From NCBI RefSeq assembly GCF_014647915.1, contig NZ_BMQC01000014.1, positions 1-64,000 of the forward strand: a DNA stretch of 64,000 bases, read 5' to 3'. Source of the stretch: Pilimelia terevasa (GTDB lineage: Bacteria; Actinomycetota; Actinomycetes; Mycobacteriales; Micromonosporaceae). Of the stretch, positions 32,218-36,182 are shown in pieces. Below the pieces are notes generated by a model that was given only the letters and a program-made list of their open reading frames with translations, was not told the DNA's origin and ran no database searches. Made by a program: the position numbers and the translations under genes. Position 1 is the first letter of the stretch. Each line of letters opens with the position of its first letter.

Positions 32218-33602
<1,385 letters not shown>

Positions 33603-33606
<4 letters not shown>

Positions 33607-36182
33607 GCAACCTGATGACCGAGCTGGACGCCGAGGTGCGGGTGGCGATCGGGCGCATCGCCCGGTCCCCGCACCTGCTCGTCGCGTGCGACTACGACGG
33701 GACGCTCGCGCCGATCGTCGCCGACCCGACCAAGGCGGTGCCGCTGCCGGAGTCGGTGGCCGCGGTCCGGGCGCTGGCCGCCCTGCCGCAGACCACCGTG
33801 GCGGTGGTGTCCGGGCGGGCGCTGCGGGACCTGGCCGCGCTGTCCCGGCTGCCCAGCGAGGTGCACCTGGTCGGCTCGCACGGCTCGGAGTTCGACATCG
33901 GCTTCGTGGAGCGGCTGCCCGCGGACCTGGTGGCCCTGCGCGCCCGGCTGCTGACCGAGCTGGAGAAGCTGATCCAGGGCCACGAGGGCATCCGGCTGGA
34001 GGTCAAGCCGGCCAGCGTGGCGGTCCACACCCGCGGGGCGGTGCCGGCGGTCGGCGCGCACGTCGTCGCCGAGGTCAGGGCCGGCGTGGCGAGCTGGCCG
34101 GACGTCCACGTCACGCACGGCAAGGAGGTCGTCGAGCTGTCCGTGGTCGCCACCCACAAGGGGACGGCGCTGGACGCCCTGCGGATGCAGCTCTCGGCGA
34201 GCGCCGTGCTGTTCCTCGGCGACGACGTGACCGACGAGAACGCGTTCGCCCACCTGCACGGCCCGGACGTCGGGGTGAAGATCGGCGGCGGCGACACCCG
34301 GGCGCACTACCGCGTCGCCTCCCCGCTGGACGCCGCCCGCCTGCTGGGCCTGCTGCTGGACACCCGGCGTAGCTGGCTGTACGGCGAGCGCGCGACCCCG
34401 ATCCAGCGCCACTCGATGCTCTCCAACGGCCGGACCGTCGCCCTGCTGACCCCGGAGGCGCGGGTGAGCTGGCTGTGCCACCCCAAGCCGGACTCCCCGG
34501 CGATCTTCGCCGACCTGCTGGGCGGCCCCCAGGCCGGGCACTTCACCATCACCCCGGAGCGCGGCGGCCTGCCGCTGGGGCAGCGGTACCGGCCGGGCAC
34601 GATGACGGTGGAGACCCGCTGGTCCGGCCTGACCGTCACCGACTGGCTCGGCGGGGCGGCGCAGACCGCGCGGGGCGACGACGCCCAGAGCGGCCGCTCG
34701 GGCCTGGACTCGACGCTGCACCGCACCCTCCAGGGCACCGCGACCGCGCGGCTGGACTACGCGCCGCGGCCGGACTTCGGCCAGATCGGCGTCCACCTGG
34801 AGGCGGCCCCCGGCGGGCTGCTCGTGGTCGGCTCCAGCGAGCCCGTGGCGCTGCACTCCCCCGGGGTGACCTGGGAGATCGTGCACGAGGCGTCCGGCGA
34901 CAGCGCCCACGCCCTCGTGGACCTGCAGGCGCACGGCGGGGAGCTGACGCTGGAGCTGCGGTTCGGGGCGCACAGCCTGGAGACCAACCCGGATCCGATC
35001 GCCGACCGGCTCGCCGACCAGGAGGGGCCGTCCAAGGAGTGGGCGGCGTCGCTGCGGCTGCCGAAGCTGGCCCGCGAGCACGTCCTGCGCAGCGCGCTGA
35101 CGCTGCGGGGCCTGTGCCACACACCCTCGGGGGCGATCCTGGCGGCGGCGACGACCTCGCTGCCCGAGGAGCTGGGCGGCATCCGCAACTGGGACTACCG
35201 CTACTGCTGGCCGCGGGACGCGTCGATGACGGCGCGGGCGCTGGTCGACCTGGGCTCGCTGGCCGAGGCCGAGGCCCTGCTGCGCTGGGTGGACGGGTGT
35301 GTGGAGCGCACCGGCGGCCACCCGGAGCGGCTGCACCCGCTGTACACGCTGGACGGCTACGAGCTGGGCCCCGAGGCCGTGATCGAGACGCTGCCGGGGT
35401 ACGCCGGCTCACGGCCGGTCCGGGTCGGGAACCTGGCCAACCGGCAGCTCCAGCTCGACGTCTTCGGACCGGTCGCCGACCTCATGGCGGCCGTGGCGCA
35501 GGCGCGCGGCGGGGTCCGGGAGGAGGAGTGGCGGGTCCTGGAGGCGATGGTCCAGGCGGTCCAGCGGCGCTGGCACGAGCCCGACCACGGCCTGTGGGAG
35601 GCGCGGCTGCCGCCGCGGCACCACGTGTACTCGAAGGTGATGTGCTGGGTCACGGTCGACCGGGCGCTGCGGGTCGTCCGCGCGTTCGGCGACGGCGACA
35701 GGCCGGACTGGGTCGCCCTACGCGACCAGATCGGCAAGGACGTACTGGACCGGGGGTGGAACCCGGAGGTCGGCGCGTACACGGTCGCGTACGGCGACCC
35801 GGACCTGGACGCGTCCTCGCTGTGGATCGGCCTGTCCGGCCTGCTGGCCGACGACGACCCGCGCTTCCTGGCGACCGTGCTGGCCGTCGAGGCGGAGCTG
35901 CGCTCCGGGCCGGTGGTCTACCGGTACCGCTGGGACGACGGCCTGCCGGGCCGCGAGGGCGGCTTCCACATCTGCACCTCGTGGCTCATCGAGGCGTACC
36001 TGCGCACGGGCCGGCGCAGCGACGCCGAGGAGCTGTTCCAGCAGATGGTCGACACGGCCGGGCCGACGGGGCTGCTGCCCGAGCAGTACGACCCGCTGGC
36101 GGAGTCGGGCCTGGGCAACCACCCCCAGGCGTACAGCCACCTGGGTCTGATCCGCTGCGCCGTCCTGCTGGACACCGACTGA
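33603..36182 (+). CDS. otsB: trehalose-6-phosphate phosphatase fused to a GH15 glucoamylase/trehalase-type domain
   Basis: 859-residue fusion. Residues 1-245 are a HAD-type Ots[10 protein letters not shown] with the nucleophile Asp, [19 protein letters not shown] and [10 protein letters not shown]. Residues about 255-855 are a GH15 family catalytic domain, with [23 protein letters not shown], the (alpha/alpha)6 barrel signature [15 protein letters not shown] and LLPEQYDP holding the expected base Glu. GH15 includes glucoamylases and actinobacterial trehalases, so the same protein could make and cut trehalose, or the second domain could act on glucans. Only one GTG start in the otsA overlap fits. 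I see no frameshift between domains. Confidence 0.92.

Follow-up and report, generated by a model that had tools for sequence, protein, structure and literature searches.

In the window analysed here (the whole stretch of 64,000 nucleotides of Pilimelia terevasa DNA) otsA is followed by a gene that joins OtsB, a trehalose-6-phosphate (T6P) phosphatase domain, with a GH15 domain in one chain, and this joined protein is both real and widespread. Judging from sequence and genome context, it is fairly probable that the protein acts as a bifunctional T6P phosphatase/trehalase, producing trehalose and able to limit or recycle its pool. According to this scheme OtsA would make T6P, the N-terminal OtsB half would dephosphorylate it to trehalose, accumulating under stress, and the C-terminal GH15 half would hydrolyse this sugar to glucose at high trehalose levels, at low energy or once the stress is over. 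The fusion itself would add a fixed 1:1 ratio and shared expression with otsA, and channelling or allostery between the halves is possible.

A single reading frame behind otsA

The frame of the fusion is stop-free and uninterrupted from its GTG to its TGA codon, and the Pfam domains of its product follow one another with scores far over the cut-offs (Table 1). Third-codon-position G+C stays at 0.97–1.00 along the whole gene in one frame, which shows that the frame does not change from one domain to the next. The fusion is not the product of a frameshift or of an assembly join: relatives show the same joined architecture, which together with the constant frame G+C rules out an artefact. Thus, the presence of OtsB and GH15 in one polypeptide, put forward in an earlier sequence-only reading of this DNA, was confirmed by one frame with three Pfam domains. 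The coupling to otsA by GTGA, pointed out in the same reading, is likewise present: the start codon of the fusion (GTG, 33603–33605) overlaps the stop codon of otsA (TGA, 33604–33606), and the identical 4-base overlap was seen in several relatives. OtsA scored 534 bits with TIGR02400, the cut-off of which is 565 bits. A second, stand-alone OtsA is encoded elsewhere in the same genome (G000:C5:226727-228085, + strand).

Table 1. Features of the otsA–fusion locus (positions in the window)
Feature	Position	Strand	Basis
otsA, trehalose-6-phosphate synthase (GT20), 462 aa, first gene of the operon	32218..33606	+	PF00982 E 2.5e-143
GTGA overlap, start of the fusion and stop of otsA	33603..33606	+	sequence
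OtsB-TREH_N-GH15 fusion gene, 859 codons, 859 aa	33603..36182	+	frame, Pfam, relatives
OtsB (T6P phosphatase, HAD) domain, Trehalose_PPase, residues 29-219	33687..34259	+	PF02358, TIGR00685, residue counts
TREH_N, trehalase-like N-terminal beta domain, residues 254-470	34362..35012	+	PF19291 E 1.8e-80
GH15 catalytic domain, Glyco_hydro_15, residues 490-853, acid E666, base E827	35070..36161	+	PF00723 E 5.9e-57, fold match, residue alignment

The OtsB half was recognized by PF02358 (102 bits against a cut-off of 27) and by the T6P phosphatase equivalog model TIGR00685 (122.7 bits against 68.05); it carries DYDGT at residues 30–34 (DxDGT) and GDDVTDE at 206–212 (the GDDxTDE metal motif), and its structure matches are 5gvx, 6upb and 6qj6. 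The nucleophile D30 is kept in 104 of 106 aligned fusions and the acid/base D32 in 105 of 106. In the P. terevasa assembly the fusion is the only PF02358 match. If OtsA is used, the phosphatase must be the OtsB half of this protein, and T6P phosphatase activity of this half is therefore likely.

The GH15 half (193.9 bits against the PF00723 cut-off of 22) showed the (alpha/alpha)6 fold in comparison with GH15 structures (VIA Z 31–33). The single-protein search of the PDB returned OtsB structures only; GH15 entries were reached with a GH15 profile. No loss of GH15 catalytic residues was found: the general acid E666 and the general base E827 are invariant in all 106 fusions, and in the profile search they align with E178 and E335 of the Kribbella isomaltose glucohydrolase (5z3 entries), for which the PDB holds both E178A and E335A mutants. 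An offset of 20 in the numbering of the aligned chain was attributed to a tag. Conserved GH15 catalytic glutamates do not by themselves fix an inverting versus a retaining mechanism (PMC12446779). Matches of the GH15 profile to pentatricopeptide repeats, which fell on one short stretch of low information, were discarded. The fold model (mean pLDDT 78.6, with GH15 catalytic loops below 50 and a low-confidence linker near residues 263–265) supports OtsB and GH15 as separate modules.

Spread, selection and ancestry of the fusion

The survey of the domain pair in genomes, suggested in the sequence-only reading, detected the fusion in 155 of 201 genomes and 40 of 44 genera of the family sample, as well as in other actinobacterial families. 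The family count was made at E <= 1e-180, a threshold that in effect selects the fusion, and includes one split copy (G001). Among 24 other genera of the family (G001–G024) the near-full-length protein is unbroken in 20; in G001 its gene is split over two frames, and no full-length match was obtained for G005 (assembly 69% complete), G012 and G023. In the family sample the listed genomes of genus g280 are without the fusion. It is also present in a genome of a different family of the same order (G038), but is rare across the whole phylum, where an even draw registered it in 6 of 396 genomes, two more matches covering the GH15 half only. Named relatives with the fusion include Micromonospora, Salinispora, Plantactinospora, Catellatospora, Dactylosporangium, Stackebrandtia, Glycomyces, Saccharopolyspora, Amycolatopsis, Saccharothrix, Nocardia, Rhodococcoides, Skermania and others. 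In 70 of 80 named loci otsA lies directly 5' of the fusion on the same strand, with a gap of -4 to 473 bases; in the loci of Nocardia, Rhodococcoides and Skermania no otsA was found within the sequence stretch examined. What had been called an unusual metabolic design is, therefore, unusual in its one-chain arrangement but ordinary in this group, and unfused operons of otsB, GH15 and otsA occur elsewhere.

For pairs of Micromonospora/Salinispora sequences dN/dS was 0.03–0.11 in GH15, 0.09–0.17 in OtsB and 0.24–0.31 in TREH_N, the absolute values being rough because of the high G+C. Both the OtsB and the GH15 halves are under purifying selection, and TREH_N is less constrained. An inactive GH15 half was rejected on account of the low dN/dS and of the catalytic glutamates present in every fusion.

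Other phyla were sampled through plasmid records. One operon of overlapping otsB, GH15 and otsA genes is present in Paracoccus yeei; in Pseudosulfitobacter otsB-GH15 lies beside a divergent otsA, and in Bacteroides GH15 lies beside a bifunctional synthase/phosphatase gene. The GH15s of these neighbourhoods occupy a different tree branch from that of the fusion, so that GH15 has probably become linked to OtsB at least twice; a single inherited cassette uniting all otsB-linked GH15s is not supported by the tree. In genus g24 a single loss of the GH15 half seems to have occurred: in G023 otsA is followed by a short OtsB and then by an opposite-strand gene of siroheme/cobA type, which fusion loci also have, and this OtsB nests inside the fusion clade with moderate support. 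Directly upstream of a GH15 from the lineage sister to the fusion we also observed a gene for a 341-aa protein (L042:269-1294, + strand) with an FDNDGVL motif, which is OtsB-like by eye and has no Pfam match.

Substrate of the GH15 half and alternative roles

From family, operon context and genome content, an inverting alpha,alpha-trehalase is the most likely identity of the GH15 half. This half follows the trehalase-like TREH_N domain and scored 307 bits with TreH1 and 253 bits with TreH2, and 41 bits with the glucan-hydrolase model TIGR01577. Both TreH1 and TreH2 are archaeal equivalog models of NCBIfam and the sole archaeal anchors of this comparison; their cut-offs (820 and 1000 bits) exceed the scores of the GH15 half, placing it outside curated trehalase membership, and exceed those of the Mycobacterium relative L033 as well (373 and 335 bits; 35 bits with TIGR01577), the pattern of scores over the three models being alike in both proteins. 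We take L033 as the putative Mycobacterium trehalase from its MVLQ start, matching the published MSMEG_4535 primer (PMC5371599), and from family resemblance. In the GH15 tree all fusions form one clade (100/99), which two stand-alone GH15s of other actinobacterial classes join (100/100); L033, with 34% identity to the fusion GH15, joins next with moderate support (89/78) across a long branch.

Catalytic flanks reported for trehalases are WE[F/D/E/V] and [S/G/A]E[E/H], and the base motif of glucoamylases is [S/P/N]EQ (PMC10232917). The P. terevasa fusion has WEA and PEQ, which differ from the trehalase-type flanks. Within the fusion clade the acid motif ranges over WEA, WEE and WEI, and the base motif is PEQ in 59 proteins, PEE in 22, SEE in 19, AEE in 4, and AEQ and SEQ in 1 each. 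Since it varies inside one clade, the base-motif site is unlikely to track substrate. Many GH15s at a similar distance adjoin genes of sugar oxidation (glucose dehydrogenase-like, other SDR, gluconolactonase) rather than trehalose genes, so that substrates of the family are mixed or unsettled. Plasmids of bacteria and a haloarchaeon (L123, L125, L127-L129, L131-L133) often have an SDR/glucose 1-dehydrogenase or an SMP-30 gluconolactonase gene next to a stand-alone GH15, which suggests a cassette of GH15 and glucose oxidation.

Neither GH13 nor TreS, TreY or GH37 trehalase was found in the P. terevasa assembly, which is 98.8% complete; one or more GH13 proteins are present in each of the eight family members searched in parallel. 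With no GH13 found, neither an amylase nor a glycogen branching enzyme, nor a route through TreS or through TreY/TreZ, is known here, and in a genome that plainly makes trehalose the absence of a known glycogen/starch route argues for trehalose as the substrate. Near a second GH15 of this genome (L151:4147-6006, - strand, contig C17) lie two genes that by eye encode a GMC-type oxidoreductase and a TIM-barrel, sugar isomerase-like protein. The sequence-only reading had offered two options for the GH15 half, a trehalase and a glucan hydrolase feeding glucose units to OtsA. The former is the better supported one (family models, operon, genome content), its trehalase identity being a prediction, and the latter is disfavoured in this genome by the missing GH13.

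In the glucan variant the GH15 half would cut maltose, isomaltose or glucan ends, and phosphorylated glucose would feed OtsA. The solved GH15 structures matched by the fusion are indeed those of glucoamylase, glucodextranase, dextran dextrinase and isomaltose glucohydrolase, and PEQ is a base motif of glucoamylase type (PMC10232917). We nevertheless consider this role unlikely: the GH15 half scores much higher with the trehalase models than with the glucan-hydrolase one, it is locked to otsA/otsB and not to glucan genes, and no GH13 was found in this genome. The GH13 argument is limited by the completeness of the assembly (98.8%) and by other fusion carriers, which do have GH13. The tight linkage to OtsB and low identity to known trehalases would also be compatible with cleavage of some other alpha-glucoside linked to OtsAB, either T6P itself or a compound derived from trehalose, in clean-up or repair of by-products; to our knowledge no such substrate is known for GH15, nor does the sequence give a specific sign of it, and this explanation appears very improbable.

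There is, further, a slim chance that one of the two halves is catalytically dead and plays a regulatory or structural role, as would be an OtsB half sensing T6P and gating GH15. Two fusions, L016 of genome G009 (D30G) and L040 of genome G048 (D30N, D32G, D208A), do combine a degenerate OtsB with an intact GH15 in a retained chain, and each of these genomes carries a second OtsB gene. In G048 this gene lies directly behind otsA, and in G009 the degenerate fusion itself still occupies that place. Besides, the large OtsB1 of M. tuberculosis is without T6P phosphatase activity, its function being not known (PMC11046441). Against a dead half stand both intact catalytic sets of the P. terevasa fusion, the sole OtsB of its genome, and the near-complete conservation of the OtsB nucleophile and invariance of the GH15 glutamates among the fusions. 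A related, rather unlikely version is that binding of T6P or trehalose by the OtsB half gates the trehalase half, making the protein a set-point controller of the pool, in which case OtsB of G009 and G048 would be a pure sensor.

Two opposite activities, as in the preferred bifunctional phosphatase/trehalase, are not peculiar as such. Enzymes that make and break trehalose do coexist in one cell, as the cytoplasmic trehalase TreF does with OtsBA in E. coli. TreF is dealt with also in PMC10969515; for GH15 trehalases a higher Km towards trehalose is reported than for trehalases of other families (PMC10232917), and the trehalase of M. smegmatis is ATP-inhibited and active on resuscitation (PMC5371599). 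Given such Km and ATP inhibition, kinetic control could suffice without an intraprotein barrier, and the claim that making and destroying trehalose in the same protein requires allosteric or spatial separation was too strong. It is probably kinetics, through a high Km of the GH15 half or its inhibition, and not spatial separation that would limit futile cycling. Should the GH15 half prove to be a trehalase, one enzyme encoded beside otsA would make and remove a protectant sugar in a large actinobacterial group. Removal of T6P, osmoprotection and recycling would then be linked in one expressible protein, giving a test case for futile-cycle avoidance, for which the natural variants with dead OtsB would serve as a built-in control, and annotation of many genomes would be improved.

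Comparison with known systems

A survey of trehalose evolution (PMC1769515) describes, in the part available, synthase-phosphatase fusions and not an OtsB-GH15 fusion, and no paper on the latter was found in the open-access literature, subscription journals lying outside the search. Genetic coupling of GH15 to T6P synthesis is shared with Rhodobacterales (Paracoccus yeei, Pseudosulfitobacter) and Bacteroides, where, in contrast to the fusion, the genes are separate and GH15 belongs to a different lineage. The Kribbella flavida isomaltose glucohydrolase (5z3a-f, 7c24-27) has the same GH15 fold and both catalytic glutamates, but it has no TREH_N, acts on another substrate and is only about 22% identical to the fusion GH15. 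Closer is the Mycobacterium GH15 trehalase (MSMEG_4535/Rv2402 type), the nearest separate lineage of the tree, which shares the TREH_N-type GH15 and the catalytic glutamate pair; it is, however, the product of a stand-alone gene with about 34% identity, whereas the fusion has OtsB in front.

As to the phosphatase half, the OtsB tree places it next to the solo OtsB of Mycobacterium and apart from the OtsB1 type; OtsB2 (Rv3372 type) has no fused hydrolase. The nearest known architecture is nevertheless that of OtsB1 (Rv2006 type, Mycobacterium; HAD - T6P phosphatase - GH65), which likewise unites T6P phosphatase with a glycoside hydrolase-type domain in one chain. The order HAD-OtsB-GH65 was confirmed in L147 from a genome of the same order. 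Along with an OtsB-GH15 fusion, a Nocardia-type genome (G089) contains strong T6P phosphatase matches in three open frames, which at 1387-1457 aa are OtsB1-like in size. OtsB1 differs from the fusion in having GH65 in place of TREH_N-GH15, an extra HAD domain and a different OtsB lineage; accordingly, Pfam finds no GH65 in the fusion protein, which places it outside the OtsB1 type, and in the OtsB1-carrying genome G031 otsA is located elsewhere, unlike that of the fusion. The fusion is widespread and, apparently, an undescribed variant, the domains, activities and operon logic of which are each known.
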